A stretch of 25,427 bases of DNA from a virus, in the IMG/VR virus record IMGVR_UViG_3300021197_001078, positions 1 to 25,427 of that record; one strand, written 5' to 3'. Position numbers and translations under genes: made by a program. The notes beneath the pieces were generated by a model, which saw only the letters and a program-made list of their open reading frames with translations, did not search any database and was not told the origin of the DNA. Positions within the stretch are counted from its first letter, which is position 1. Every line of letters starts with the position of its first letter. Of this stretch, positions 8,734 to 25,244 are shown piece after piece.

Positions 8734-11700
8734 ATGCCGGAGTTAAAAAGAAATTTTCTAAAAGGTAAAATGAACAAAGACCTTGACGAAAGGCTAGTTC
8801 CAGACGGTGAGTATAGAGATGCTTTAAACATAGAGATTTCTACATCTGAAGACTCAGACGTTGGTTCTGTTCAAAACGTAAAAGGTAATAAATATATTGA
8901 AAGTACAAGCTACACGCTTTCTAACTCTGCTGAGTCAGTTGGCCATTACGTAGATGAAAAAAACTCTCACGCTTATAACTTTGTTAGACTAGCTTCAAAC
9001 GTAACTGCTAATACAAGCTTCGCAAACTACTCTAGCACACCAAGATACTTGGGCACTAAGTCAGACGCTATTATTAGAATAGAAGACGATAAATCTTCAA
9101 ACGAAGTTAAGAGTGAAGTTATATTTTGCGATGTGTATGAAGCGAGAGTAACTCCTAGTCCTTTTACAGCTAACGTTATCGATGGTCTTGATGTAAATAT
9201 ACCCTTGTATATAAGGCCGGGCATGAGGGTTCAGGCAATAGATCTTGATGGCAATGATCTGTGGGGAGAGTCAAACGACGTAAGAGTAGTTAGCGCGCCT
9301 TGGCCTAGTCTAATTGGAGCTAGCACAGGAACTGTTAATATAACATCGGTATTAAACGTAGCTAATATATATACTCAGTCTATGATTAACGACGGGGTTG
9401 TAATTAGGTTTACGGATGAAAAAATATTAAACTTCAAGGGCGGAACGTTAGAGTTAGAACAAAATAATAAAAATGCGTTGGGTGTTGACGTAAATGCTTT
9501 AGCTGTATACACCCCTGAAAGCAACATTATAACTGGGATAAACATAATAGATGGCTTACTGTGTTTTACAAACAACATTGATGAGCCTAAAAAAATTAAC
9601 ATAGCTCAATGTAGAAAAGGTAGTGGTTACTCAAAAAGCACGGCTTTAAAACACCACACAAGACTTATAATAGACAAGGAGGGTGTTAGCGTTAATAAAG
9701 GGCATATAAAAAAATCTCATGTTACACTTATAAAACCATCGCCTACTAGAGCACCTAGAGTAAAAGGTTTTACTTCAGAGAGAAGTGGTATAACAACATC
9801 TTATTTATACGACACTGCTGGCACTGAGTTTGACTTATCTCCAAACGGAGTGTTATATAACGCTTCAGATGTAAGCCCTGACACTATTCAATTAACAACA
9901 GGCAACTCTAACCCTGATTGGTTTGTTGGAGATATTATACGCATGAAAGGCGCGACTTCATCTATAGAAGTTGATTTAGTTTTAGACGAAAAAATCAACG
10001 ACTACACTTTTGTTTTTGAAATAAGAAATATACCTAGCTCTTACACAGCGAGTACTGCGCCTGAAGTATGGATTGGCAAGCTTTTTGAAAAAGAAAATAT
10101 ATACGAAGATAAGTTTATATCTTTTGCATATAGATACAAGTACAACGACAACGAATACTCTGTAATATCGCCGTACTCTAAGCCTTTGTTTATTCCTGGT
10201 AAATATGACTACGATCCAATATCTGGTTTTAATACAGGTATGTCTAACAACCTAAAAAAAGTAGAAGTATACGATTATATTCCATACAGCATTCCAAAAG
10301 ATGTAGTTGAAGTTGAGCTACTGTATAGAGAAACTCAATCACCTAACGTATATCTCATCAAAAAAGTTAGTATATCCGATGAAGAGTGGAACGCAGTAAT
10401 CACTAAAAGTAAACACAAAGGTAGAACTGTAATTAACTCGCAGCTATTCGGTAGCACAATACCAACAAATCAAGTTGACAGACTGCAAGACAATATTCCA
10501 ACAAAGGCTGCTGCTCAAGAAATCACGGCATCAAGACTTATGTTTGGTAATTATACGGAAAACTATAATTTAGTTGACGACGCGGGTCTTCCGGTCAAAG
10601 CTAGACTGTCGATGCAGTTAAGCTCTAAGAATATTAACTCTGAGCTAAATATAAACTCTACAAACAATTTTGAAGCGTCTCAGCTAACTACACTCGCTAA
10701 CAGCTACAACGTAGCGTTGCCGTGCGATGAGGAAGCTATCGATGGAGATCCTGGAGATAATTACAATCTTACTAACTATTATTTTGAAGCGCCAGTCGCT
10801 GGAGACTACACTTTTGAGGCTAGCTGCAAATGGAAAGCTCAAAACGGAATTTTAGCTCTAGATGCTCTTAATGACAACCGTTATATGTGGCTTTTTCCTT
10901 GGGCTTATTTAGAGCTGAGAGACTACGACACGCAGGAGGTTTTAGCTACAGGAGCCCAGTATAACAACGGGGACCCTGGCGCGCACACTAGTTTTTTGCA
11001 ATTTACAAATCAAACTATTAGTGGATCTACAAACCCAAGGGCAACTTTTAATGGTAGTACCTGGTGGGGTAATACTTTTTCTTCTAACCCGCCGGGCTGG
11101 ATTACATCCGACTACAACCCAACACTAACACTAGACTCTACGGTAAACTTAACCGCTAACAGAAAAGTATACATAAGAGTTGTAGCTCAAGACCCTACGG
11201 ACAATACTAACCTGCCACAAGGAACAATACCTGACGGAACTGCAGAGTTTGCTTATGACTACAATAGTGGAACAGAACCATTAGATACTTTCTCTTGGGT
11301 TAATACAACCCACACTTCTGAAATAACTAATGGTCTATTTAAGTGTACGAGTTCACCTGAAAGCAACGGTACTTTTAATGTTACGTCTGGGGTCGAATCA
11401 ATAAAAACAGAAAGAAAATATCAACTAGGCGTTGTCTATAGAGATTCTTATAATAGACAATCAACAGTGTTAATAAGTGATAACGCTGCTTTAGATATTA
11501 GAAAGTCTTACTCTGAAAACACTAACGCAATAAAGGCTAAAATATTTAACAAAGCGCCTTATTGGGCTGACTACTACAAGTTTTTTATTAAAGAAAATGC
11601 TAATCCTTTTTACAATCTAGTAATGTCCGCTGCCTACGAGAACAACGACGCTAGCTCTCTAGCTTCGCACTTGTGGTTATCGTTTAACTCAGATGATATT

Positions 11701-14700
11701 GATAAAGTTCAAGAGGGAGATTTTATTGCAGCTAAAAAAATGCATAACCAAAACACAGCGTCTAACACGGTAGCTCAAAAATGGAAGGTATTAGATATTA
11801 GTAGAACAAACCCTGTTACAGCGGACGGAGAGACGCCTTTAATCGCGGATGCTTCAGCTGTCGCTGGTAAGTTTTTTGTTAAAATAGCAAAAGACATTTA
11901 TAGCGATGCTTTTTTAGGAACAACATTTCCAATAGATCCTAGCCCTTACGGTGCTGTATTTGAAGTTCAACCTCAAAAAACTATAGATTTAGATATATAC
12001 TACGAGGTTGGCAACGCTTACCCTATTAAGCTAGATAAAAATAATCTATCAGAATTCGTAGATATAGATGCTAAAGTAAAATTGTTGGATATTTTTGATC
12101 CAGCGTGGTTGGAAGGTGGTGCTCAAACGTATAGGCAAGATAGTGTAGACGCGCTTAAGTCTATTATAGACGATCAAGATATAAAGGTAACCGGCTTAAT
12201 TGGAGCTAGATCTTTTAGTCATTATGGCGTTAATAGTGGTAGTTATTTTAGCTCAGCTGTTATATCGCTAGATAAAGATATTAACTTAAATCTTCCGCCT
12301 GAAGGAAGTATACTGATTGGCTTTGAAAATAAAGATGGAAGTGTAGTTTCTTTAAGCTTAGCTAAAAGCGTTTCTAGCAATCAGATTTATTGCAAACCTT
12401 TAACGCATAGCTACGGTAATATTAACGCTGCTTTACCTATAACCTTACCTTGGTTCAACTGTATTTCTTTTGGTAACGGTGTAGAGTCAGATGTAATAAA
12501 CGACGACTTTAACGCTAATCCAATATTTCCGTACACAGCCAACGGTAAGCAAAGTGGGTTTAATGTAAACGTCGTGTTTGACAGTTATAAAGAAGAAACA
12601 AAACAAAGCGATATTATATTCTCTCAAATATATAATGAAAAATCCGGGGTCAATAGATTTAATGAGTTTTTAATAGGCGAAAATATAGTCAAAACATTAC
12701 CTGATGAAAACGGTGGTATTCAGAGATTATTTACAAGGGACACAGACTTATTAGCGTTTTGCGAAAAGAAAGTGTTAAAAGTACTAGCGGATAAAGACGC
12801 TTTATTTAATGCTGATGGAAATCTTCAAACATTGTCAACAGATAAAGTTTTAGGTCAAGCTATACCTTTTGCTGGAGACTACGGTATTAGCAATAATCCT
12901 GAATCGTTAGCGTTTGATCAGTATAGAATTTACTTTGTAGACTTAGTAAAAAGAGCTGTATTGAGGTTATCTTTAGATGGTCTTACTGTGATCTCAGAGT
13001 ATGGTATGTCTGACTGGTTTGGCGATAATTTAAAACAAGCTCAAGCTGTTATTGGTAGTCTTGACGAAGATAAAGGTGATTACAACTTAACTGTGCACCA
13101 GGTTACAAACCCAGACTACAAGAAAAACGTATATACAGTTACGTTTAGCGAAGATGTAAAAGGCTGGGATAGTTTTAAGTCGTTTATACAAGAGCAAGGG
13201 TTTAGTTTAAACAATAACTACTACACTATTAACAAGGGTAAAGTGTATAGGCATCACGACGACACTGTTAGTAGAAATAACTTTTATGGAAATCAATATA
13301 ACTCTTCAGTTACCCCGATAATAAACGATGTTGTTAGTTCAGTGAAAAGCTTTTCCACCATAAACTACGAGGGGACACAGTCAAAGGTAGATCAAAATAC
13401 TCAAGATAGTAGCTACCATAACTTGACCGCTAAAAACGGATGGTATGTTGAATCTATAGTTACGGACCAGCAAGAAGGTACAGTGTCAGAGTTTATAGAA
13501 AAAGAAGGGAAGTGGTTTAACAATATACTAGGAAAGCAAACTCAATACACGAACTCTCAAGAAGGGTCTACAGCGTCGAACAACTTAGACTTTCAAGACT
13601 TTTCTGTTCAAGGTCTAGGTGTCCCTACGTCGGTGTCTGGAACAACCGCTGGATTTGGGCATAAGCTTTCTGTAACAATGACTGCGTCAGGTACTGGCTG
13701 GGAGTCTGATGGTTATACTGAGTATAATATAACAGGTAAAGCTAACGGTAACACTAGCACCTTTACAATAACACCTTTGCCGGGATATTCAATAGCTGCT
13801 AGCAACTTTACGGCAATAGGAGCCGACGCTAGCGTAAACTCCATCACTTATAGCGACGCTGGAGTCGCTAACACACCTAGCAACACTATAACTGTTACTA
13901 TAGACTGGAAAGCTATAGTGCTGTCCTCAGACTTAAATATTAACATCTCGGACAGTGGTACTTATATTGAAAATACTTTTGCTTACGAAACTAAGCTATC
14001 CGTATATAGAGATATCGCGAAAGAAGATGTCGCTATAAGCTCAATCGTTCCATCTATAGATGACTCTGCTTCTACAGAAGTTAATAGCGGGGCTTCAATA
14101 GTTTTATTCAATGCAAACTCAGATGGAGTAGAAAGTTACAAAATAACTGGTGGCGCTACTAAGTTAGTACCGTTAAACTTGTATAAAGTTACACTAACTG
14201 CTAAACCTGGCTTGTATTACTTTAACAATGGCCCTGGCGTCCAGTTCTCGAGCAATGCTGAAGAGGCCAACTGCTTTGAAGTAATAAGTGAAACTGTTGA
14301 AAGAAACTTAAACGACTTAATTGTAAGTAAAACAGTAATAATACAATACACTCCTACTGAAGATGTATTGTTTACAGATGAAATAAACATTGGCTTTGGT
14401 GGAGGTATTCCAATTTCAAGCTACGCCGTTTTCAATAGTAATCAAATAGTTGCTGCTCATGATACTAACAGTATTATTCTACCGTTTACAACTAACGTTG
14501 GGTACTTAAGTTTTTCAGCAACATCTACAGATAACACTAACGCAGCTATAAGCGCTGTAACAAGCTCAACTGTTGAGGTTACGCTTACAACTAACTCTGG
14601 ATCTACTGGTAGTCCAAGAACATTTACAATAGGTTTGTTCAGTTCGTTTAATAATACGGCCACGCCAAACGACACTATAACCATAATACAAACAGAGTCT

Positions 14701-15768
14701 TCTCAGAACTACGTAGATATAAAAACTCTAGATGACGCAGACGCACTTACTGTGACGGCTAACGTTGACCTTGACCCATTATCTTTGGTTGCTGGCACTT
14801 TTTTAATTAAAAAAAGCTTGTATCTATACACTAACGGAACGGCACCTGTCGCAGACACTTCTTTTAACAGTAATCAATCTTGGGCTAACACGTTTATTGT
14901 ATATGAAACTGATGACCCTACAGTTTACATTGGTAGAGTTGCTTTAGATATAAACACAACTGGATCAAGCAGAACAGCCACGATAACTTTAATACATTCT
15001 GACACATCGACCACAGACACCTTTGTTATAACTCAAGAAGCTTACGACGCCGCTACAGAGACAGCTTTATTTGACGATGCTGACAACTTTATAAGCGTAG
15101 ATCAAGCTGGCGGTTCTGGAACTATCGATATTACTACCGCTAATGTAGGTGCTTACGATCCTTACGTTGAGCTTTTTGATCCAAACGGTGATTTATCTAA
15201 CTATATTACGATAGGTGATGTTACTAAAATAGGTACTAACGACTACAGTATTTACTATTCTGTTATACCAAACGAAGAAACAACTAGCAAAGTATTTACA
15301 TTGAAAATGTATCACCCTTCAAACAGAACGCCGAGTGCAACGGCTAACGATACACTCACTATTAGTCAAAACGCTTTACCGTACGCTAACTTTGAGCCAG
15401 CTCAAGGTGTACAAAGTCAAATAGAGTTAAGTAGTGCTGGCGAGACAAACTACGAGCTAAATGTTAATCACAATGATTACACGCCTGGTTCACCGAGCTT
15501 CCCTAACACCAGATTCTTAGTGGATGATAATAACGACGGTACGTATGATGTAGATATTACAACTTCTCCAGGTATATCTTGGATTCCTTTCGCGAATGTT
15601 AACTGGACTAACTCAGCTAACAATGTTGATGGTAACGGTATACTTAAGTTCAACGCAAGTGCTAACGCAACTGGTAGCTCTAGAAGTATAAACTTAGGTG
15701 TATTCCACTCGAACAACTCTAGCTCTACTCCAAACGATACAATAATAATTAATCAAGTTTCAAGCTAA
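8734..15768 (+). CDS. Giant tail hub / 'muzzle' protein, P22 gp10-like with BACON-like C-terminal repeats
   Basis: A 2344-residue tail protein, probably the distal hub that plugs the tube and meets the cell surface. The N-terminus (FLKGKMNKDLDERLVPDGEYR) is the hallmark opening of gp10-like tail stabilisation proteins. Later family-like segments are LGVVYRDSYNRQSTVL (residues about 905-920), RFNEFLIGENI (about 1306), a propeller-like stretch to about 1430, and VKGWDSFKSFIQEQGFSLNN followed by SVKSFSTINYEGTQ (about 1470-1555). A beta-sandwich-like block at about 660-850 seems inserted between gp10-like segments. Residues about 1620-1890 look like Ig-type domains. Residues about 1897-2344 hold four BACON-like repeats. 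Far longer than P22 gp10, it resembles the muzzle of crassviruses in place and design. The start is ATG 5 bases after the neck gene. The stop overlaps the next start (TAATG). Confidence 0.78.
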   Translation: MPELKRNFLKGKMNKDLDERLVPDGEYRDALNIEISTSEDSDVGSVQNVKGNKYIESTSYTLSNSAESVGHYVDEKNSHAYNFVRLASNVTANTSFANYSSTPRYLGTKSDAIIRIEDDKSSNEVKSEVIFCDVYEARVTPSPFTANVIDGLDVNIPLYIRPGMRVQAIDLDGNDLWGESNDVRVVSAPWPSLIGASTGTVNITSVLNVANIYTQSMINDGVVIRFTDEKILNFKGGTLELEQNNKNALGVDVNALAVYTPESNIITGINIIDGLLCFTNNIDEPKKINIAQCRKGSGYSKSTALKHHTRLIIDKEGVSVNKGHIKKSHVTLIKPSPTRAPRVKGFTSERSGITTSYLYDTAGTEFDLSPNGVLYNASDVSPDTIQLTTGNSNPDWFVGDIIRMKGATSSIEVDLVLDEKINDYTFVFEIRNIPSSYTASTAPEVWIGKLFEKENIYEDKFISFAYRYKYNDNEYSVISPYSKPLFIPGKYDYDPISGFNTGMSNNLKKVEVYDYIPYSIPKDVVEVELLYRETQSPNVYLIKKVSISDEEWNAVITKSKHKGRTVINSQLFGSTIPTNQVDRLQDNIPTKAAAQEITASRLMFGNYTENYNLVDDAGLPVKARLSMQLSSKNINSELNINSTNNFEASQLTTLANSYNVALPCDEEAIDGDPGDNYNLTNYYFEAPVAGDYTFEASCKWKAQNGILALDALNDNRYMWLFPWAYLELRDYDTQEVLATGAQYNNGDPGAHTSFLQFTNQTISGSTNPRATFNGSTWWGNTFSSNPPGWITSDYNPTLTLDSTVNLTANRKVYIRVVAQDPTDNTNLPQGTIPDGTAEFAYDYNSGTEPLDTFSWVNTTHTSEITNGLFKCTSSPESNGTFNVTSGVESIKTERKYQLGVVYRDSYNRQSTVLISDNAALDIRKSYSENTNAIKAKIFNKAPYWADYYKFFIKENANPFYNLVMSAAYENNDASSLASHLWLSFNSDDIDKVQEGDFIAAKKMHNQNTASNTVAQKWKVLDISRTNPVTADGETPLIADASAVAGKFFVKIAKDIYSDAFLGTTFPIDPSPYGAVFEVQPQKTIDLDIYYEVGNAYPIKLDKNNLSEFVDIDAKVKLLDIFDPAWLEGGAQTYRQDSVDALKSIIDDQDIKVTGLIGARSFSHYGVNSGSYFSSAVISLDKDINLNLPPEGSILIGFENKDGSVVSLSLAKSVSSNQIYCKPLTHSYGNINAALPITLPWFNCISFGNGVESDVINDDFNANPIFPYTANGKQSGFNVNVVFDSYKEETKQSDIIFSQIYNEKSGVNRFNEFLIGENIVKTLPDENGGIQRLFTRDTDLLAFCEKKVLKVLADKDALFNADGNLQTLSTDKVLGQAIPFAGDYGISNNPESLAFDQYRIYFVDLVKRAVLRLSLDGLTVISEYGMSDWFGDNLKQAQAVIGSLDEDKGDYNLTVHQVTNPDYKKNVYTVTFSEDVKGWDSFKSFIQEQGFSLNNNYYTINKGKVYRHHDDTVSRNNFYGNQYNSSVTPIINDVVSSVKSFSTINYEGTQSKVDQNTQDSSYHNLTAKNGWYVESIVTDQQEGTVSEFIEKEGKWFNNILGKQTQYTNSQEGSTASNNLDFQDFSVQGLGVPTSVSGTTAGFGHKLSVTMTASGTGWESDGYTEYNITGKANGNTSTFTITPLPGYSIAASNFTAIGADASVNSITYSDAGVANTPSNTITVTIDWKAIVLSSDLNINISDSGTYIENTFAYETKLSVYRDIAKEDVAISSIVPSIDDSASTEVNSGASIVLFNANSDGVESYKITGGATKLVPLNLYKVTLTAKPGLYYFNNGPGVQFSSNAEEANCFEVISETVERNLNDLIVSKTVIIQYTPTEDVLFTDEINIGFGGGIPISSYAVFNSNQIVAAHDTNSIILPFTTNVGYLSFSATSTDNTNAAISAVTSSTVEVTLTTNSGSTGSPRTFTIGLFSSFNNTATPNDTITIIQTESSQNYVDIKTLDDADALTVTANVDLDPLSLVAGTFLIKKSLYLYTNGTAPVADTSFNSNQSWANTFIVYETDDPTVYIGRVALDINTTGSSRTATITLIHSDTSTTDTFVITQEAYDAATETALFDDADNFISVDQAGGSGTIDITTANVGAYDPYVELFDPNGDLSNYITIGDVTKIGTNDYSIYYSVIPNEETTSKVFTLKMYHPSNRTPSATANDTLTISQNALPYANFEPAQGVQSQIELSSAGETNYELNVNHNDYTPGSPSFPNTRFLVDDNNDGTYDVDITTSPGISWIPFANVNWTNSANNVDGNGILKFNASANATGSSRSINLGVFHSNNSSSTPNDTIIINQVSS
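14423..15765 (+). repeat. Four tandem BACON-like beta-sandwich repeats (protein level)
   Basis: The end of the tail hub gene encodes four diverged units of about 100-130 residues. Each closes with a pattern like 'SR-T-T/N-hydrophobic-hydrophobic ... ND(T)-hydrophobic-T-I-x-Q'. The closing strands are NDTITIIQTE (about 14700), TDTFVITQEA (about 15042), NDTLTISQNA (about 15375) and NDTIIINQVS (at the C-terminus). Units one and four share TPNDTI and are the closest pair. BACON domains are known from Bacteroidota surface proteins and from a crAssphage tail protein, where glycan or mucin binding is proposed. Similarity is by eye and at the protein level only; the DNA is not visibly repeated. Confidence 0.68.
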
Positions 15769-16151: not shown

Positions 16152-16814
16152 ATGAAGAAGACTCCAAAAAAATATGTAGGCTCATCTCCAATGAAGCTTC
16201 CTGTGTGGGCTCCAGCTGCAATATCCGCTGGCGTAGGACTACTTGGCGCTATAAGTGGACGTAAGCAAGAAAAGCGAGCTAGACGTAGAGCTTTAGAGGC
16301 TGAGAAAGCTGCGGCTCCTTACTTAGAAGCTTATAAAGCAGAAGAGTATGTTAATCCTTACGCTGGTATGGAAAATGTTTACGAAGACATGCGTGTTGAT
16401 ACTCAAGCTGCAGAGTTTGAAAAGCAACAGCTAGCACAACAGCAAGCTGATGTACTTCAAGGTTTAAGAGGCGCGGCAGGTGGTGCTGGTGTAGCTGCTC
16501 TAGCTCAATCAATGGCTAGACAAGGTGCTATTCAAGCTCAAAGAACTTCAGCTGATATTTCTAGGCAAGAGCAAGATATACAGCGCCAACAATTACAAGA
16601 GCAGTCTAGAATACAGGGTCTTGAAATGCAAGGTGAAGAAATGGTTCGTCAACAAGAAAGACAAAGATTAACAGACTTATACGCTATAGAAGCTGGTAAA
16701 GCAGGCGTTGCTTTTGGAGAGGCAGCTAGCGCCAGACAACAAATGATTGGTGGATTAGGTCAAATAGCTTCGGCTGGAATTTCAGCGACTGACGCTGGTT
16801 TATTTAAAAACTAA
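16152..16814 (+). CDS. Probable internal virion (ejection) protein, T7 gp14-like position
   Basis: A 220-residue protein and the first of three likely ejection proteins. A short basic N-terminus (MKKTPKKYVGSSPMK) precedes a hydrophobic segment at about 18-35 (VWAPAAISAGVGLLGAISG), followed by a very basic patch (RKQEKRARRRALEAEKAA). The rest is a long helix region extremely rich in Gln, Ala, Arg and Glu (about 85-185). A Gly/Ala-rich stretch at about 106-122 is suited to membrane insertion. Such small Ala/Gln-rich helical proteins with one hydrophobic segment, next to a giant virion protein, correspond in place and character to T7 gp14, which lines the outer-membrane channel during DNA entry. 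Sequence homology to T7 is not claimed. It follows a 36-base A/T-rich gap; no promoter motif was recognised there. Confidence 0.62.
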   Translation: MKKTPKKYVGSSPMKLPVWAPAAISAGVGLLGAISGRKQEKRARRRALEAEKAAAPYLEAYKAEEYVNPYAGMENVYEDMRVDTQAAEFEKQQLAQQQADVLQGLRGAAGGAGVAALAQSMARQGAIQAQRTSADISRQEQDIQRQQLQEQSRIQGLEMQGEEMVRQQERQRLTDLYAIEAGKAGVAFGEAASARQQMIGGLGQIASAGISATDAGLFKN

Positions 16815-16820
16815 TAGGTA

Positions 16821-18032
16821 ATGGCAGATATAGTACAAGCAGCATTAGGATTAGAAAGAGCGAAAGCTGGAGCTAGAATGGCTAAAAGCGATATATCAGG
16901 CTTTACTGATCCTATACAAAGACAAGTTAGTGAAATAACTGAAAGAAATAAAGAGGCTCGCAAAAACTTTGTGGGTAACATCCCTGATAACTACGAGTTT
17001 GATTTAATACCAGCAGAGGCTAAAGCTAAGTTAACTACGTTCTTAAAAGATAAAAAACAAGAGTATATAGACTTTGCAGATCAAGCTAGTAGATATTCTG
17101 GCAACACAAGCAGCCAAGAATACATCGATGCTGTAGAAGGTATGGAAAATGTAAAAGCTGCAATGAACAGAAACTACGAGGATCTAGTTATAGCTAAGCA
17201 AATAAGACAGTACGAAATTGACAATGAAAACAAAGGTATAGTAGGTTTTGTTGGTGATGAAAATGCTGATTCAAGAAGAACTGCTATTGTTGACGGTAGC
17301 ACTTTTAACAACATAGAATTTACTGATGACGGAGCGTTTATAAACGATGGTTTTGGCGAAAAAATAGCGTGGAATAAGTATGATAAAACACCAGTAAGAA
17401 ACGTTGAGGCAGCTAAAGCTTTCGCAGATTTAAAGAGTGATGTTGGAAAGCTAAGTGCCGCAGGTAGAGATAAAAAAACTGTAAGAGATGCGGTAGAGAC
17501 TGAGCTTGGATTTCTTTTTCAAGATTCAAACTTTGTTGATGAAATATACAATATGGGTTTTTATGGAGATGTAAGAGGAAAAACTGTTTACAAGAACATA
17601 CCTGGAGCTACTAAAGAAAACATGTTTGACTTTTTTACCGATATGGTAATGAATGATAGTTATGTTCCACCTTTATCTAAAAGTGGTAGCGGCGCGAGTC
17701 AATCAAACTCGACTGTAATAGCTAGTCAATATATTCCAAATGAAGATATTATGGCTAACTTACAAGCTGCTCAAGACTTAGTAAACAAGCCTGGTAGAGG
17801 AAACGCTATAACCATATTAGGTAAAAATAGATTTGGAAAAGTTTGGTATGATCCAAAACTTAAAATGCATGTTCTTGAAGGTCCTGATTCAACTGAATTA
17901 GAACCTACTCAAGAAGGTTATAAAAAGAAAAGTTTTAAATCTTTAAAAGACTTATATTCTCAAATAACAGGCGGAGTTACAAACAAGTTCTTTAAAAGAA
18001 CAGCCGCTGATCTTATAAACCAATATAAATAA
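16821..18032 (+). CDS. Probable internal virion (ejection) protein, T7 gp15-like position
   Basis: A 403-residue soluble protein lying 6 bases after the previous ejection-type gene and 12 bases before the giant one, so the three form one unit. Residues about 1-130 are mostly helical and charged (ALGLERAKAGARMAKSD; EYIDAVEGMENVKAAMNRNY). Residues about 140-190 are strands and turns (GFVGDENADSRRTAIVDGS). Residues about 195-290 are helical, and a Ser/Gly-rich linker lies near 288-300. A compact C-terminal part contains GKVWYDPKLKMHVLEGPDS. No enzyme motif, signal peptide or membrane span is visible. By position and neighbours it is a candidate counterpart of T7 gp15, the internal core/periplasmic tube protein. 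This is inference; I did not recognise the family itself. Confidence 0.58.
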   Translation: MADIVQAALGLERAKAGARMAKSDISGFTDPIQRQVSEITERNKEARKNFVGNIPDNYEFDLIPAEAKAKLTTFLKDKKQEYIDFADQASRYSGNTSSQEYIDAVEGMENVKAAMNRNYEDLVIAKQIRQYEIDNENKGIVGFVGDENADSRRTAIVDGSTFNNIEFTDDGAFINDGFGEKIAWNKYDKTPVRNVEAAKAFADLKSDVGKLSAAGRDKKTVRDAVETELGFLFQDSNFVDEIYNMGFYGDVRGKTVYKNIPGATKENMFDFFTDMVMNDSYVPPLSKSGSGASQSNSTVIASQYIPNEDIMANLQAAQDLVNKPGRGNAITILGKNRFGKVWYDPKLKMHVLEGPDSTELEPTQEGYKKKSFKSLKDLYSQITGGVTNKFFKRTAADLINQYK

Positions 18033-18044
18033 TAAAATAAACTA

Positions 18045-21000
18045 ATGAAAGAGTTAGAAGAAATTGTTCAGCGCATGATTGACGCTGGAGAGACTGAAGA
18101 TAATATTAAGTTGGTTATTGAGGAATACACGGCAAACGTGGAAAAGACAAACGGCTCTCAGATAGAGGATGCAACTGCGGAGCCAGAAAGTACGGCATCC
18201 AGCTTGGAGGTTGGTTCTTCGGAGCAACCAAAAGTTAATAAGGAAGACTTACTTAGACAAGCAAGGTTTGAGTTTGCTTTGCCTAGCCAAAAAGCCGGGA
18301 TGGTTGTTGAGAGCATGTTTGACATGGTTAAAAGCTTAGTAACAGACAAGCAAGAAAGAGAAGAGACCGCTACGGCTCTTAAAAACCAATTTGTAAATGT
18401 ACCTAAAAGACTTAAAGATACTTTTTTTAAAAGCATACCAGCTATGTTTGCGGCTGGTTATAAAAGCGTAGCCTATGGTGATTTATCTGACGATGAAGAG
18501 TTAGATTATTTAAAAACACTAAATCCTAGCGATTCTTATGAAGATCCTATGGATGAGCCAACTGGGTTTAAAACAAACGCCGAAAGAATACAGTACCTTG
18601 AAAAATATAAAGCGGGTGAAACCTCTCAAGCTAAAAAAGAGCAGGAAATAGATGGCTTTATTAAAGATAAATTTAAAGAAATAGAGGCCAGTAAAAAGCT
18701 AATGAAAGATACTGGAGAAGGTATATTTGCTGGCGTAAAGCAAGCGGACGCTTCAGATTTTATAAGTGGACTTTTTGGCGCTAACGTGCAAATGATAGAA
18801 ACAGTGGTTCCAGCAATGGTTACTGGTGGCGCTTCTTTACCTTTTCAGATTGCCGCGCCTATGTACGTAGACTACAACACGGCTAAAGCTAAAGAAATAT
18901 ACGGTAAAGATGACCCAGAAGCTATAGATAAGCTAATAGACAATAATGAAGATGAGTTTGCGGTTCCAGTTACTCTTGGAATTGCAGCTAGTGGCTTAGA
19001 ATATGTAGGTTTTAAAGGTATAACTAAATATATAATGGGCTCTCCTGGTAAAGGAACAGCTTTTGCTAAACTGCTTTTAACAGGAAACAGAGAAGGTTTA
19101 ACAGAGCTTGGACAATCTGGTATAGAAGAAGCAAACACGGCTGTAGCTCAAGGTAAAAGTAACGAAGAAGTAGTGAAAGCTATGGCAGACGGTATTTTTA
19201 GCGAAAAAGGATTAGAGAGCTACTTAAATGGTTTTATTGGGTCTACCGGCATGAGTGTTGCTGGTAAAGCTTTAAATAGAGCAATAAGAAGTGACAACGC
19301 TAGTATTGCAGAAGTAAATAGTAAAATAGATAAAATAGCTAAGCTAGTATACACTAAAAATCAAACTAAAAACAAGCAAGTTAAGGACGCTATAGATTTA
19401 GACATTAAAGAAGCAGAGCAAGATCTAAAAACTTATATAACAGAAAAAAGAAAAATAAAAAACATACTAAATGAAGATCAAAAAAATTCCTTGATTAACG
19501 CGCTAAACGAAAAAGATAAAATAACATCTGACATATCATCTTTAAAACAGCAAGTTGAAAGCGGTGAAATTACCAACAAAGAGTTTGGGTATGCTTTTAG
19601 AGCATTAAATAATCAAGACAAAAGACTTTCAGAGCAAATAGAGCTTGTAAACGCTGAGGCCAAGCAAACTGCTATAGAGCAGCAGAAGGAGAGCTTAGCG
19701 CCTAAAGCAGAGGAGCTTGGTGGAACTATTGTCTCTATGACTTCTCAAGAAATATCAGACGCTCAAGGCGAAAGAATAGCGGCTCTTGAAGCTGAAATAG
19801 AAGAGAATCAAAAGTTTATAGACGACCCTAACGTTAACGAAGAAACTAAAAACACGGCTAAAGAAAACCTAAAAGAGTTTAAAAACCAATTATCAAATAT
19901 TCAGCAAGCACAAACATCTTATGGATTTATCGCTGAAAAAAGCGATGGTAGCTTTGAGCTAATAATAAACGAAGATAAACCTAAATTTGGCACGGCTGCC
20001 CATGAGTTTTTGCATTTAGTTTTAGCTAAAACTTTAAAAGGAGACTCGAGATTACAAAGCTCACTAGGTGACGCTTTGACTAGTTTTGTTAATGACAAAA
20101 AAGGCGGCGTTAGCAGTGAGTTTATAAATAGAATGACCCCGTATATAAACTTAGAAACTGGCGAGCTTGAGTCTAACTTTGGTGAAGAAACAATAACTAT
20201 AATGTCGGAATCTATAATGGACGGAACATTAGAGTTTAATGATAACTTTTTTACTAAAATAGGAGATATTGTAAGACAAACAACACGAAGACTAGGTTGG
20301 ACAGACGTTAAGTTTAACACAGGTCGAGACGTATATAACTTTATAAAAGATTACAACGCTAGCATCGAAAAAGGATATACTAGCGAAGCTATAACTAAAG
20401 TAGCTAAAGAAGGTGCTAAAGGTAAATTACTAAAAGGAAAAGTTGTTGATGGCACTAAAGCTCAGTTTTCAAAAGTTTACCAAGAAGTTGAAACAATGAA
20501 AGCTGATTTAGTAAATCCAGACACTAAGCAAGGGACAGCGTTTATTATTGCAGATACATTGTCTAACGAGGTAGATAGACGTTTACCTAGAATAGAAGGT
20601 ATAACAGCAGAAGAAAGAGCCGATATAGTTAGAAACTTTACTTTAGACGATAATAGAGGCTTAGTAGGTTTGTTAAATAACTATAATCCAGACAGAAACG
20701 ATAGCATAATGGGTTATCTAAACTCTTCTACACCCGGAGGTAAACTATTAGACGCTAGACTTCAAGAGTTTTATAAAGACGATCCTAGGTTCGGTCAAAT
20801 ATTTCAAACTACGACTGATGAAGCTGTAGCCACAAAAGTTGAAAGAGAGACAGCTATAGAAGAAGAAGCTACTGGTCTTTCTGAAACTGGTAGAAAAACT
20901 AAAGGTAAAGTCATTGCGAATGAGCTAAATATAGCTAATAAGGTTAAATCTGAAGTAGCTGAAGCTAATATAGATGTTGATGCATTAACCAACTTTAAGA

Positions 21001-24000
21001 GTGTCCCTAGCGCTGCCCCAAAAACCGTAGGAGAGTTATTAGGTATAAACCCAATAAAACTTCAAAGAACTGTTATTGACGAGGAAACAGGTGAAAAAAT
21101 AAAAAATAAAAAGTTTAAAGCCAACTTGACAGCAGGCGAAGTTGCTAGCGCTCAGCGTTGGTTTAACGCTAACAGGCAGCTGGTAATCGATGGTTTACCA
21201 AAAGGCTTTGATGTTGGCGGTCAAGCAACTGGCGTACCTAGAACCGTGTTAGATGCTTTATATACAAAAAAAGAAACTAGAGCTAAAACAGCGGCTGGAC
21301 TAAAAGGTCAAGTTAAACGTGCTAATATTAAAGACTCTGAGTTTTTAGCATTAGTAGATATTATTGATGGGAAACCTAATCGAAATAGAGATACATCGGC
21401 TAGAATTATAGCTATTGCAGATTTATTAAGCAAAGTGATTACTAATCAAGAGGTTAGGCAAACAGTGCCTGGTACAGAAAGAATACGAAGCGGTATGTCT
21501 GAGGTTATGTTTAGTAAAGCAGACGAGCTGATACAAGTTAACCCTGAGTTTGAAGGTGATTTAAAAAACATTAGTAAGCTTTTAAACACTTTTATAGACG
21601 AAGGAATATTTAAGCACAATACGGTAGAACAAATAGACTTATTCTACGAGCAAGTTGAAAATGTTTGGGCTAAAAATCTTCCTAAAGACTTAATTACTAA
21701 AACAGTTCTTAGACCTAGCAATAGAATATTACCAAACAAAGGTAAAGACACTATAACTGTTGACGGTGTTGAAACTACTATAGACGCTTATTACACTAAA
21801 AAAAGAGATGAATTTATAGCTAGAGAAGACGTAAAGTATGGTGAAGCTTTTTCTGAAGAAGGTGCAGACTACAAATACGGTAGAACTTATGGGAGTATGT
21901 TTGGGCTCACAGCTAAAGATATAAGTAAGGCTAACTCTAACGGAACTATAGCTAGAATAAACAAGGAAAACTTATCCATGCATAAGCAGCTTTGGCAAAG
22001 GGTTAACGAGTCAATTAAGGCTGACCCTAAAAACGCTAAAGCTTGGGGTAACTACTTTAGTCTTGTAGGTCAAGATGTAACACATCCACATAGAATGGGA
22101 GCTGAAATGATTGGCTGGACCACGAAGCCTAAAGGTCATAAAGGTAGAATGTACGAGTGGGAGCACGCCATGCCTGCAACTAGAGCCTACTTATACTTAA
22201 TGGAGGCTAGTTTAGATGAAAACATAAACTTTGAGTCTGCTTATGACTTAGTAATAAACAATTTTAAGCTAATAGCCTTAGATAAAGCTGATGACATGAA
22301 GCTTAAAGCTGCAGGAAGACAGACTAGTATGGGTAAAGGCTGGACTGTTTTTGATAATTGGTACGACAGATATTTTGACAAAGAAGTAGCTAAACAAGGA
22401 GGTATAGATCCAAAAGGCATACAAAGTCTTGACGGCAGGACGTTTGATCAAGTGTACAACGTTAACATAGAAGGTGCGGCAGCAATTACTTTACCAATAG
22501 AAGGTAAGGCTAACATCAGCCAAAGCATATCTAACGTTAGACCGGTTTTACAATACAGCAAAGACTCAAAAGGTATGTCTACCTTTGACTTTGATGAAAC
22601 TTTAATTATAGACGGTGAAAACTTTGTTACAGCAACTAAGGATGGTGACGTGGTAAAAATACCATCTGACAAGTGGCCTATTGATGGTCCTAGATACGCT
22701 GAAGAGGGATATGATTTTGATTTTTCTGATTTTGTAAACGTTCGCGGTGGTAAAGAAGGTCCACTACTTCAAAAAATGAAGAATCAAATAAAAAAGTATG
22801 GTCCTAGCAACGTGTTTGTTTTAACAGCTCGTATGCAAGAAGCCGCTGAACCTATACACAAGTGGTTAAAAAGCAAAGGTATTAATATACCTTTAGAAAA
22901 TATAACTGGACTTGGTAAAAGCGAAGGTGACGCTAAAGCTCAATGGTTTATAGATAAGTACGCTGAAGGTTATAATGATATGTACTTTGTAGACGATGCC
23001 TTGCCTAACGTAGAAGCTGTTAAGCACGTGTTTGATCAACTAGATGTTAAAGGTAAGTCAGTTCAAGCAAGAATACAGTTTAGCAAAGATATGAGCTCTG
23101 AGTTTAACAAAATGCTAGAGCGAACAAAAGGTGTTGCGGCTGAAAAAAGATTTTCAAGAGTTGTTGGTCAAAAGCGTGGTAAAAACATAGGTAGATATAG
23201 ATTTTTTGTACCACCTTCAGCTGAAGACTTTGCGGGGTTATTGTACGACTTTTACGGAAAAGGCAGTCAAGGTAACGCTGATATGGAGTTTATGAAAAAA
23301 GCTTTACTAGATCCATTTGGTAGAGCTGATCGTGAAATGAGTATGGCTCGCATGAGTATACTTGACGATTATAAAATGCTAAGAAAAGAGTTACCTAACG
23401 TAAAGAAAAAGCTAGGTAAGATAATAGACAAGAACACAGGCTTTACTTTTGACAACGCGGTAAGAGTTTATTTGTTTGATAAAGCTGGATTTGAAGTTCC
23501 TGGTATATCAAAGCGAGATCTTGAGTATTTAAGAAACGTAGTAAGAACAGATCAAGATTTAAAAACTTTTGCTGATACGTTAAGTGTTATTTCTAAAAGA
23601 AAAGAAGGTTACATAGAGCCGGGCGAAAACTGGAGCGTTGAAACAATAGCGTCTGACTTAGAAAATATTGTAAATAAAATTGGTAGAAAGCAATACTTAG
23701 CAGAGTTTATAGAGAATAAAAATATTATATTCTCGCCGGAAAACATGAATAAAATAGAAGCTGTGTATGGCTCTAGATTTAGAAACGCTTTAGAAGACTC
23801 GTTATATCGTATGGAAAACGGTACTAATAGATCTAAAGATAGAAACTATGGACAAAGTTGGACTAACTGGGTAAATGGTTCTGTAGGCGCTATAATGTTC
23901 TTCAACGCTAGGTCAGCTGTACTACAAACTTTATCTACAGTAAACTTTATAAATTTTCAAGACAACAATATATTCGCGGCTGGTAAAGCTCTTGCTAATC

Positions 24001-25244
24001 AAAAGCAGTATTGGTCAGACTTTTCTACACTGTTTAACTCAGACTTTTTGAAAGCTAGAAGAGCTGGCCTACAAATAAACGTAAATGAAGCTGAACTTGC
24101 CAACGCTGTAGCTGGAGCTCAGAACAAAGCCAAAGCTGCTTTAGCATATCTACTTAAAAAAGGTTTCTTGCCAACGCAGGTAGCAGATAGTTTTGCTATT
24201 GCTTCAGGTGGTTCTACATTTTACAGAAATAGAATTAAAACCTATGTTAAGCAAGGTATGGATCAAAAAGCTGCAGAAGAAAAAGCATTTTTAGATTTTC
24301 AAGAAATAGCTCAAGAAACTCAGCAGTCTAGTAGACCTGATCGTATATCACAACAACAAGCGAGTCCACTAGGACGTCTTATATTAGCTTTTGCCAATAC
24401 TCCAATGCAATACAACCGTTTGATTAAAAAAGCCGCTAGAGACTTAATAAACAATCGTGGCGACTGGAGAAGTAATATATCAAGAATATTATACTATGGG
24501 GCTATACAAAACATTATATTCTCTTCACTACAGCAAGCTATATTTGCTTTAAGTTTTGACGACGAAGAAGACGACGCATTAGACAAAAGAACAATGAGAG
24601 TAGCAAATGGTATGATGGATACTATACTTAGAGGATCGGGCGTGACAGGTGCTGCGGTTGCGACTATCAAAAACACTATAATGAGATTTATAGAGGAGTC
24701 TGAAAAGGGATTTAGAGCCGACTACGGGCAAGTTGCTGTTGAAGTTACTCAAGTATCTCCACCTATGGGGTCAAAAATGAGGAAACTTTACAGCGCGTTA
24801 AATGCTTATAAGTTTAATAGAGATATAATGGGTAGCATGGACACATTTGACTATAATAATCCTATTTGGGATGCGGCGGCTAAAGTTACTACAGCCACTA
24901 CTAACGTTCCGCTTGATAGACTTTTTAGAAAAACAGACAACATTAAAGAGGCCTTAAATCAAGAAAACACAGCCATGCAAAGATCGTTTTTAGCTCTAGG
25001 TTGGAGTAGTTGGGATTTACAAGTTGGCGAGCGTGTTGTTGTGAACAAAGGCAAGAAAAATGAATACGTAAAGTACCTAGACACAAAGCGTCAAGCTCAA
25101 GAAAAAGCTGAAGAAGAGTTGAAAGAAACTAAGAAAAAAGAAAAAAGAGCTAAACAGCAGAGATGTACCGCTATAAAATCTGGAGGCGGAAGGTGTAAAA
25201 ACATGGTGAACAAGCCGAAAACGCGCTGTCACTTTCACGATTAA
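18045..25244 (+). CDS. Giant multidomain virion protein: HEXXH peptidase, HAD phosphatase and zinc-knuckle parts
   Basis: A 2399-residue 'large polyvalent' type protein in the T7 gp16 position, probably packed in the head and ejected with DNA. Residues about 238-330 have hydrophobic stretches (VVPAMVTGGASLPFQIAAP), and about 430-625 are coiled coil. HEFLH at 653-657 is an HEXXH zincin motif, with E714, E715 or E722 as possible third ligands. About 1513-1670 is a HAD domain: DFDET at 1515-1519, LTAR at 1593-1596, candidate Lys 1625 or 1631, and VDD at 1649-1651. Residues about 1705-2345 are the helical region typical of such proteins (YRFFVPPSAEDF, ASPLGRLILAFANTPMQYNR), with hydrophobic helices near 1945-1972 and 2148-2172. 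A Lys/Glu helix leads to C2374, C2384, C2395 and H2398, a zinc-knuckle-like tail. A (Q/M/R)(F/Y)S(K/R) motif recurs at 807, 1155, 1503, 1678 and 1702. No lytic transglycosylase motif was recognised. Confidence 0.72.
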   Translation: MKELEEIVQRMIDAGETEDNIKLVIEEYTANVEKTNGSQIEDATAEPESTASSLEVGSSEQPKVNKEDLLRQARFEFALPSQKAGMVVESMFDMVKSLVTDKQEREETATALKNQFVNVPKRLKDTFFKSIPAMFAAGYKSVAYGDLSDDEELDYLKTLNPSDSYEDPMDEPTGFKTNAERIQYLEKYKAGETSQAKKEQEIDGFIKDKFKEIEASKKLMKDTGEGIFAGVKQADASDFISGLFGANVQMIETVVPAMVTGGASLPFQIAAPMYVDYNTAKAKEIYGKDDPEAIDKLIDNNEDEFAVPVTLGIAASGLEYVGFKGITKYIMGSPGKGTAFAKLLLTGNREGLTELGQSGIEEANTAVAQGKSNEEVVKAMADGIFSEKGLESYLNGFIGSTGMSVAGKALNRAIRSDNASIAEVNSKIDKIAKLVYTKNQTKNKQVKDAIDLDIKEAEQDLKTYITEKRKIKNILNEDQKNSLINALNEKDKITSDISSLKQQVESGEITNKEFGYAFRALNNQDKRLSEQIELVNAEAKQTAIEQQKESLAPKAEELGGTIVSMTSQEISDAQGERIAALEAEIEENQKFIDDPNVNEETKNTAKENLKEFKNQLSNIQQAQTSYGFIAEKSDGSFELIINEDKPKFGTAAHEFLHLVLAKTLKGDSRLQSSLGDALTSFVNDKKGGVSSEFINRMTPYINLETGELESNFGEETITIMSESIMDGTLEFNDNFFTKIGDIVRQTTRRLGWTDVKFNTGRDVYNFIKDYNASIEKGYTSEAITKVAKEGAKGKLLKGKVVDGTKAQFSKVYQEVETMKADLVNPDTKQGTAFIIADTLSNEVDRRLPRIEGITAEERADIVRNFTLDDNRGLVGLLNNYNPDRNDSIMGYLNSSTPGGKLLDARLQEFYKDDPRFGQIFQTTTDEAVATKVERETAIEEEATGLSETGRKTKGKVIANELNIANKVKSEVAEANIDVDALTNFKSVPSAAPKTVGELLGINPIKLQRTVIDEETGEKIKNKKFKANLTAGEVASAQRWFNANRQLVIDGLPKGFDVGGQATGVPRTVLDALYTKKETRAKTAAGLKGQVKRANIKDSEFLALVDIIDGKPNRNRDTSARIIAIADLLSKVITNQEVRQTVPGTERIRSGMSEVMFSKADELIQVNPEFEGDLKNISKLLNTFIDEGIFKHNTVEQIDLFYEQVENVWAKNLPKDLITKTVLRPSNRILPNKGKDTITVDGVETTIDAYYTKKRDEFIAREDVKYGEAFSEEGADYKYGRTYGSMFGLTAKDISKANSNGTIARINKENLSMHKQLWQRVNESIKADPKNAKAWGNYFSLVGQDVTHPHRMGAEMIGWTTKPKGHKGRMYEWEHAMPATRAYLYLMEASLDENINFESAYDLVINNFKLIALDKADDMKLKAAGRQTSMGKGWTVFDNWYDRYFDKEVAKQGGIDPKGIQSLDGRTFDQVYNVNIEGAAAITLPIEGKANISQSISNVRPVLQYSKDSKGMSTFDFDETLIIDGENFVTATKDGDVVKIPSDKWPIDGPRYAEEGYDFDFSDFVNVRGGKEGPLLQKMKNQIKKYGPSNVFVLTARMQEAAEPIHKWLKSKGINIPLENITGLGKSEGDAKAQWFIDKYAEGYNDMYFVDDALPNVEAVKHVFDQLDVKGKSVQARIQFSKDMSSEFNKMLERTKGVAAEKRFSRVVGQKRGKNIGRYRFFVPPSAEDFAGLLYDFYGKGSQGNADMEFMKKALLDPFGRADREMSMARMSILDDYKMLRKELPNVKKKLGKIIDKNTGFTFDNAVRVYLFDKAGFEVPGISKRDLEYLRNVVRTDQDLKTFADTLSVISKRKEGYIEPGENWSVETIASDLENIVNKIGRKQYLAEFIENKNIIFSPENMNKIEAVYGSRFRNALEDSLYRMENGTNRSKDRNYGQSWTNWVNGSVGAIMFFNARSAVLQTLSTVNFINFQDNNIFAAGKALANQKQYWSDFSTLFNSDFLKARRAGLQINVNEAELANAVAGAQNKAKAALAYLLKKGFLPTQVADSFAIASGGSTFYRNRIKTYVKQGMDQKAAEEKAFLDFQEIAQETQQSSRPDRISQQQASPLGRLILAFANTPMQYNRLIKKAARDLINNRGDWRSNISRILYYGAIQNIIFSSLQQAIFALSFDDEEDDALDKRTMRVANGMMDTILRGSGVTGAAVATIKNTIMRFIEESEKGFRADYGQVAVEVTQVSPPMGSKMRKLYSALNAYKFNRDIMGSMDTFDYNNPIWDAAAKVTTATTNVPLDRLFRKTDNIKEALNQENTAMQRSFLALGWSSWDLQVGERVVVNKGKKNEYVKYLDTKRQAQEKAEEELKETKKKEKRAKQQRCTAIKSGGGRCKNMVNKPKTRCHFHD

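Follow-up and report, generated by a model that had tools for sequence, protein, structure and literature searches.

We propose that the 2399-aa protein encoded at positions 18045..25244 of this viral genome fragment is a virion-packaged polyvalent cargo protein, in which a swappable gluzincin-type cassette is joined to a steadier half composed of a Pnkp-type HAD domain and a helical core, and which would act at entry; we put the probability of this reading at roughly 0.7. Gene position, retained catalytic residues, a predicted HAD fold and module swapping between relatives all support it. The window analysed is the whole of virus record IMGVR_UViG_3300021197_001078, a 25.4-kb (25,427-nt) stretch occupied by a single uninterrupted gene module on the + strand, to which all coordinates below refer. 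The giant's frame runs from ATG to stop without interruption, and on re-reading the sequence we found the coordinates and motif positions given in an initial annotation of this DNA to be exact. In order, the chain contains the zincin, a domain with an EH..P motif, the HAD phosphatase-like domain and the helical core.

The module starts with the end of a terminase gene, followed by the portal, a 394-aa gene, the major capsid protein (MCP), a 276-aa gene, two ring/adaptor-type proteins, a muzzle-type tail protein of 2344 aa (8734..15768; Pfam crAss_MUZ_C, 3e-9, and phrog_14478), genes of 115, 220 and 403 aa, and finally the giant. Searches with the portal and with the muzzle each reached 87 named phages, all of Flavobacteriia except one unassigned environmental genome, and the order terminase, portal, MCP, rings, muzzle, 220-aa protein, 403-aa protein, giant is that of Cellulophaga, Flavobacterium and Maribacter podoviruses. 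By its genes, then, this is a marine podovirus of Bacteroidota type with a crAss-like muzzle, and its lineage is not T7-like. Among metagenome-assembled contigs, two matched (from a Maricaulis bin and a Sphingobacteriales bin), too few for a host assignment. The initial annotation had set the giant beside T7 gp16, which is likewise very large and in the ejection-protein position; given the crAss-type muzzle and the Cellulophaga/Flavobacterium podovirus gene order, that is the wrong lineage for comparison. Nor is the lytic transglycosylase of gp16 matched here: no such Pfam match appeared in the giant even at E up to 1, as the annotation had said. One relative (L093) has a glucosaminidase domain (PF01832, E 4.5e-15) within its 3548-aa giant frame (G015:C1:14862-15359), and wall-cutting domains can therefore belong to such cargo.

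Position in the module is what speaks for a place inside the particle. In the Cellulophaga phages phi18:3 and phi40:1, giants (gp123 and gp101) occupy the same slot after the muzzle and cargo-type genes, and proteins of this region are annotated as structural from experimental MS/MS proteomics: gp120, gp121 and gp123 in phi18:3, and gp097 to gp101 in phi40:1, the giant being the last protein detected in each. No sequence homology between these giants and ours was detectable, so that their equivalence is one of gene position, and the same lack of detectable homology holds for the giants of phi38:1 and phi19:3, close relatives of phi18:3 and phi40:1. (NC_021790, phi18:1, which we had taken as a possible origin of the phi38:1 annotation, turned out to be an unrelated siphovirus.) The genes leading up to the giant fit the same picture. 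The 220-aa protein (16152..16814), a probable cargo or structural protein, is related to phi38:1 gp99 (1e-7 by phmmer against a small set), and 82 of 87 loci encode a relative of it upstream of their giant. The 403-aa gene directly upstream of the giant (16821..18032), also in a cargo position, has as positional counterparts phi40:1 gp100 and phi18:3 gp121, both detected by MS/MS. Because MS/MS-detected giants fill this slot in syntenic phages, the ejection or cargo position proposed earlier is borne out, and by analogy the giant is probably packed inside virions as cargo. The same slot in Maribacter phage Panino (L010 35423-40912) is filled by a giant of 1829 aa, presumably a tRNA methyltransferase, going by its annotation.

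Two well-described kinds of virion cargo invite comparison. The phicrAss001 cargo proteins (gp45, gp46, gp47, gp49 and gp50) are likewise giant and encoded downstream of the muzzle protein; head and tail cargo includes gp45 to gp47, whose genes adjoin the muzzle gene, and the cargo is thought to unfold as it exits through the tail (PMC10172136). The giants of crassviruses, however, are RNA-polymerase-associated, while ours has neither a DxDxD-type motif nor a detected polymerase domain. The N4 virion RNA polymerase is also a giant with an HEXXH zincin that is delivered from the virion (PMC5512222); the T7-like RNA polymerase domain that defines the N4 type was not detected here. No polymerase family was found in the giant with Pfam or PHROGs, or in eight close members with a Pfam scan, and with the DxDxD motif missing we dropped a virion RNA polymerase as the giant's identity.

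The giant is a member of an established class, the polyvalent proteins, which the initial annotation had rightly invoked: one very long chain, encoded with virion genes, holds several unrelated domains. As in the proteins surveyed by Iyer et al. 2017, the chain is giant and multidomain, has a zincin as a hub domain, is encoded among virion genes and is mosaic in architecture (PMC5512222). A PNKP-like HAD as a standing part of the clade sets the giants apart: the survey does not mention this combination, and the terms 'HAD superfamily', 'haloacid' and 'phosphatase' are absent from it (PMC5512222). Pfam, PHROGs and NCBIfam gave no match above threshold on the whole giant. A PH_4 match at residues 2298-2394 (E 8e-4, under its cut-off) overlaps a coil rich in lysine, and we read it as a chance hit. 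The LPD domains in Pfam were likewise not found in the giant, and LPD14 is present in 3 of 20 relatives. A tblastn search with the giant found no named phage in the collection searched; BFVD contains uncharacterised relatives from uncultured viruses.

To gather the family, a search with the whole giant yielded seven close relatives, while scanning public viral contigs with the HAD region brought up 167 stretches that encode a relative, of which the best 80 were kept (87 HAD-bearing ORFs were listed, seven of them duplicates, leaving 80 distinct ones, 76 of these start-complete). The zincin alone was too divergent an alignment to gather relatives with. Relatives of this phage's portal (64-99% identity) were present in 24 of 26 contigs checked and relatives of its MCP (53-97%) in 25, so these contigs represent a single phage group in which the giant is a constant component.

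The zincin-type domain spans about residues 620-775 (19902..20369) and consists of a beta-hairpin, the HExxH helix and a helix with the putative third-ligand glutamate. The motif is HEFLH at residues 653-657 (20001..20015), and exactly one HExxH lies N-terminal to the HAD domain in all 76 start-complete relatives; considering that the mean probability in shuffled sequence is 0.013 per protein, the motif is not there by chance. The predicted third zinc ligand, E715 (20187..20189), is a glutamate in 75 of the 76. Across residues 61-800 the invariant columns are G627, H653, E654, H657, E715 and F766, and among 20 long, highly divergent N-terminal parts only M1, H, E, H and a downstream E are invariant; the same five columns are invariant in another 29. 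To us, these invariant H, E, H and E columns, read from sequence, are the strongest argument for selection on a working metal site.

An AlphaFold model of the zincin built from the 76-slice alignment (pLDDT 83.4) has two long helices, a two-strand beta-hairpin, the HExxH helix (model residues 83-96) and, on a separate neighbouring helix (145-158), E715 (model residue 148), so that HEXXH is followed by a glutamate on the next helix, as in zincins. The order of secondary-structure elements is that of polyvalent-protein zincins except that two strands are modelled (PMC5512222), the third strand being absent from the model. Foldseek and VIA searches with the model returned matches confined to the long N-terminal helices, so the zincin is assigned by motif and topology. 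Structure prediction, which the initial annotation had called for, thus gave a confident model with the HExxH and E715 helices adjacent and did not give a zincin match in the fold search. A PDB sequence search gave nothing significant for the zincin, the best being snapalysin-type zinc proteases (E 0.67) aligned at the HExxH; the Pfam peptidase families M78, M90 and M76 reach a few zincin slices (best 6e-5), and the giant's own zincin stays below the Pfam threshold. We therefore treat it as a predicted zincin, on the strength of the motif, the conserved third ligand and the secondary-structure order. A zincin profile also hit the giant of Flavobacterium phage elemo (27 bits, E 1e-9 in a five-sequence search; motif HEIFH) and was weak on the ctfjg026 giant, which has two HEFGH; HExxH is absent from the giants of phi38:1, phi19:3 and Panino.

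Comparison of close relatives shows that the two halves of the chain have different histories. In an alignment of eight sequences, nearly all blocks within residues 1500-2300 share 71-99% identity with this giant, against just 9-29% for residues 101-600. The clearest case is L006, a phage with a portal 99% and an MCP 97% identical to ours and a giant 94-99% identical over residues 1500-2200; its residues 101-800, on the other hand, are only 11-25% identical to ours and about 90% or more identical to those of L003, which indicates cassette exchange that includes the zincin region. As judged from these alignments, the zincin half is a swappable cassette and the helical core the fixed part, and the active-site residues are kept though much of the N-terminal half varies between relatives.

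Such a pattern, a fixed active site in an otherwise highly variable half, is what a fixed catalyst with variable targeting would produce, and one reading is that the zincin cuts a host protein (of the envelope, defence or transcription) just after entry, its surroundings varying with the target or with host defence. Exchange of the cassette between near-identical phages fits this reading as well. However, flanks needed only for packaging would give equal variability, and the target, including the envelope suggested in the initial annotation, is hypothetical; we consider such an effector role rather unlikely as the main explanation.

A somewhat better candidate, still short of an even chance, is a maturation protease: the zincin would trim itself and other cargo in the assembling head for storage or threading, with no host role, and the C-terminal part would be what is delivered. 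Autoproteolysis has been proposed for polyvalent-protein zincins, and P1 DdrB is cut before packaging, while the N4 virion RNA polymerase, likewise a zincin protein, enters the particle as an uncut chain (PMC5512222). In this giant the zincin precedes the steadier C-terminal half, and the linkers that separate them vary. Moreover, F/Y-S-K/R tripeptides occur near domain joints of the giant (residues 808, 1156, 1504 as YSK, 1679 and 1703), and in the N-terminal parts of the family FSK is 2.8-fold enriched (98 against 35 expected) and MFS is found 5.7 times over expectation; these tripeptides are a possible processing signal. Part of the FSK enrichment is due to shared ancestry, however, and the cleavage signal is putative, as is the cutting into products that the initial annotation's word 'polyprotein' implies. 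The alternatives for the substrate, namely the own chain, partner cargo or a host protein, are those that Iyer et al. raise for the zincins of polyvalent proteins (PMC5512222).

The HAD domain (residues 1506-1678; 22560..23078) carries motifs I-IV (DxDxT, T/S, K and DD) in order: DFDET (D1515, D1517, T1519), VLTAR (T1594), K1631 and VDD (D1650, D1651). Each of these seven residues is kept in 76 of 76 HAD-bearing relatives, a figure that covers HAD-bearing members only because the 80-member sample was gathered through this domain. Pfam matched DUF2608, which we take to be a member of the HAD clan, in 41 of 41 HAD slices (best 8e-6), and also NIF phosphatase and HAD; a PDB sequence search gave no significant match. 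In a 1181-residue model (pLDDT 78.1) the domain, at model residues 357-529, has the Rossmann-like HAD fold. With VIA-align 2 its best match is the T4 Pnkp 3'-phosphatase (Z 12.5, rmsd 2.6 A over 127 residues), next comes the bacterial RNA-repair enzyme Pnkp1 (Z 11.7-12.5 for the Pnkp pair), and almost only HAD structures follow; the table for this model spans Z 9.2-12.5 and is filled by HAD structures, so that it says little about the middle and core domains. The alignment with T4 Pnkp starts at model residue 358 and Pnkp residue 157, which places D1515 (model residue 366) at Asp165, presumably the nucleophile of that enzyme. Both the complete motif set and the HAD fold anticipated at this site in the initial annotation thus hold up, and the model predicts a phosphatase of T4-Pnkp type that is a standing part of the clade.

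What this phosphatase would act on is harder to say. In T4, Pnkp contributes to mending tRNA after cleavage by an anticodon nuclease. The HAD domain could similarly act in repair or on nucleotides, as a 3'-phosphatase resembling T4 Pnkp, and so counter nuclease-based or nucleotide-based host defence. The fold matches to the two Pnkp enzymes and the retention of every catalytic residue are consistent with this. At the same time, HAD folds take many substrates and a fold match reveals none of them, other HAD enzymes trail by Z gaps of merely 2-3, and identity to the T4 enzyme is 13-17% within the common fold. Unlike Pnkp, the giant has no kinase domain, nor is a ligase domain visible in it, and some relatives do without the HAD altogether. 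We therefore hold a repair function only tentatively, as one that may apply but that we would not yet favour.

The relatives lacking the HAD emerged when the scan was made with the core instead. This found ten loci, the seven close relatives plus L021 (4688-12067) and the near-identical L022 and L024 (2858-12340), whose giants, of 2460 and 3161 aa, have a core 38-43% identical to ours. Each of the three has a single HExxH and lacks the HAD domain; with the zincin profile L021 scores strongly (133 bits), L022 and L024 weakly. We accordingly gave up the idea that the HAD is invariant in every giant with this core. With HExxH kept where the HAD is absent, zincin and core form the wider pair and the HAD is a part at the level of the clade. 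Conversely, the core follows the HAD in all HAD-bearing ORFs except one cut-off fragment.

Between the zincin and the HAD lies a mixed alpha/beta middle domain (about residues 1169-1484; 21549..22496) that is confidently modelled (pLDDT mostly 85-97) and had no significant match in a PDB sequence search. It contains the motif EHAMPA (residues 1373-1378; 22161..22178), in which, among the 66 sequences having the region, 57 keep E1373, 58 keep H1374 and 45 keep P1377; the E and H are kept in most members while the surroundings vary. The C-terminal core (residues 1700-2300; 23142..24944) is all helical and 83-97% identical among the closest relatives. It gave 48 BFVD matches at E below 1e-3, several of them named polyvalent phage proteins, with TM-scores mostly of 0.25-0.4, which suggests a loose structural likeness only. 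The core probably serves packaging or ejection.

The ends of the chain are more variable. Residues 1-30 (18045..18134) form a tag-like segment, one of about five interchangeable N-terminal types that are exchanged among close relatives, for example 'Y.VDG..Y.V.P.R..EFL.K.PNA', 'ELNG.EYSLEQLQ..A....MDF..YL' and 'ELE.IVQRM.DAGE.E..IK.VI.EY' (giants L025-L104). The ctfjg026 giant also starts with short repeats. Among the family's contig fragments these types were not found convincingly on other proteins, and they are possibly packaging or ejection tags. Helices at residues 239-323 (18759..19013) are mildly hydrophobic. The hydrophobic helices reported earlier did not stand up as membrane spans, since no 19-residue Kyte-Doolittle mean exceeds 1.4 (best segments 239-272, 305-323 and 2153-2171) and the usual membrane-span threshold is about 1.6. 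The terminal Cys3His knuckle (residues 2374-2398; 25164..25238) is present with all four residues (C2374, C2384, C2395 and H2398) and has a weak, sub-threshold likeness to the HGGxSTG domain, but it is optional, occurring in 42 of 66 complete relatives; many of those without it end in a lysine/arginine-rich stretch. Its three cysteines are the only ones in the giant. Cysteine is strongly avoided in the family: outside the tail the giants have 0.4 per 1000 residues, a value shared by relatives of the 220-aa protein, whereas muzzle relatives have 4.5 and other ORFs, with non-coding frames included, 9.6. Of 66 complete giants, 40 are free of cysteine apart from the tail.

The conservation of the core is what one would expect of a structural ejection protein, and the giant could be purely that, an ejection or channel protein whose enzyme-like domains are inert relics. 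We regard this as very improbable, since relics shed their catalytic residues, and here these are among the best-kept positions across 76 relatives. Relatives exchange much of the chain yet preserve its active sites, so the giant is probably an entry tool and not a passive structural part. In the entry reading that we prefer, it would be stored in the particle, the long helical core probably serving packaging or ejection, and would exit via the tail before or alongside the DNA. It would then refold in the host, and the zincin would act there or en route, its HExxH and E715 cutting the own chain, partner cargo or a host protein. The HAD, for its part, may strip phosphates off nucleic-acid ends or nucleotides early in infection. 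A bolder version, which we think improbable though less so than inert relics, is that this widespread marine clade injects a self-cutting two-enzyme chain, in which the cassette-exchanged metallopeptidase would free the PNKP-like phosphatase and core to work in the host before phage expression, perhaps on nucleic-acid ends that host defence has cut.

Enzymes delivered together with the genome work before the phage is transcribed, and few activities have been described for that stage. In this large clade (167 candidate stretches via the HAD) two predicted active sites are kept while the N-terminal half is largely swapped, and the role of injected enzymes thereby becomes testable on two small domains; culturable Flavobacteriia phages share the gene slot and offer a route to virion proteomics.
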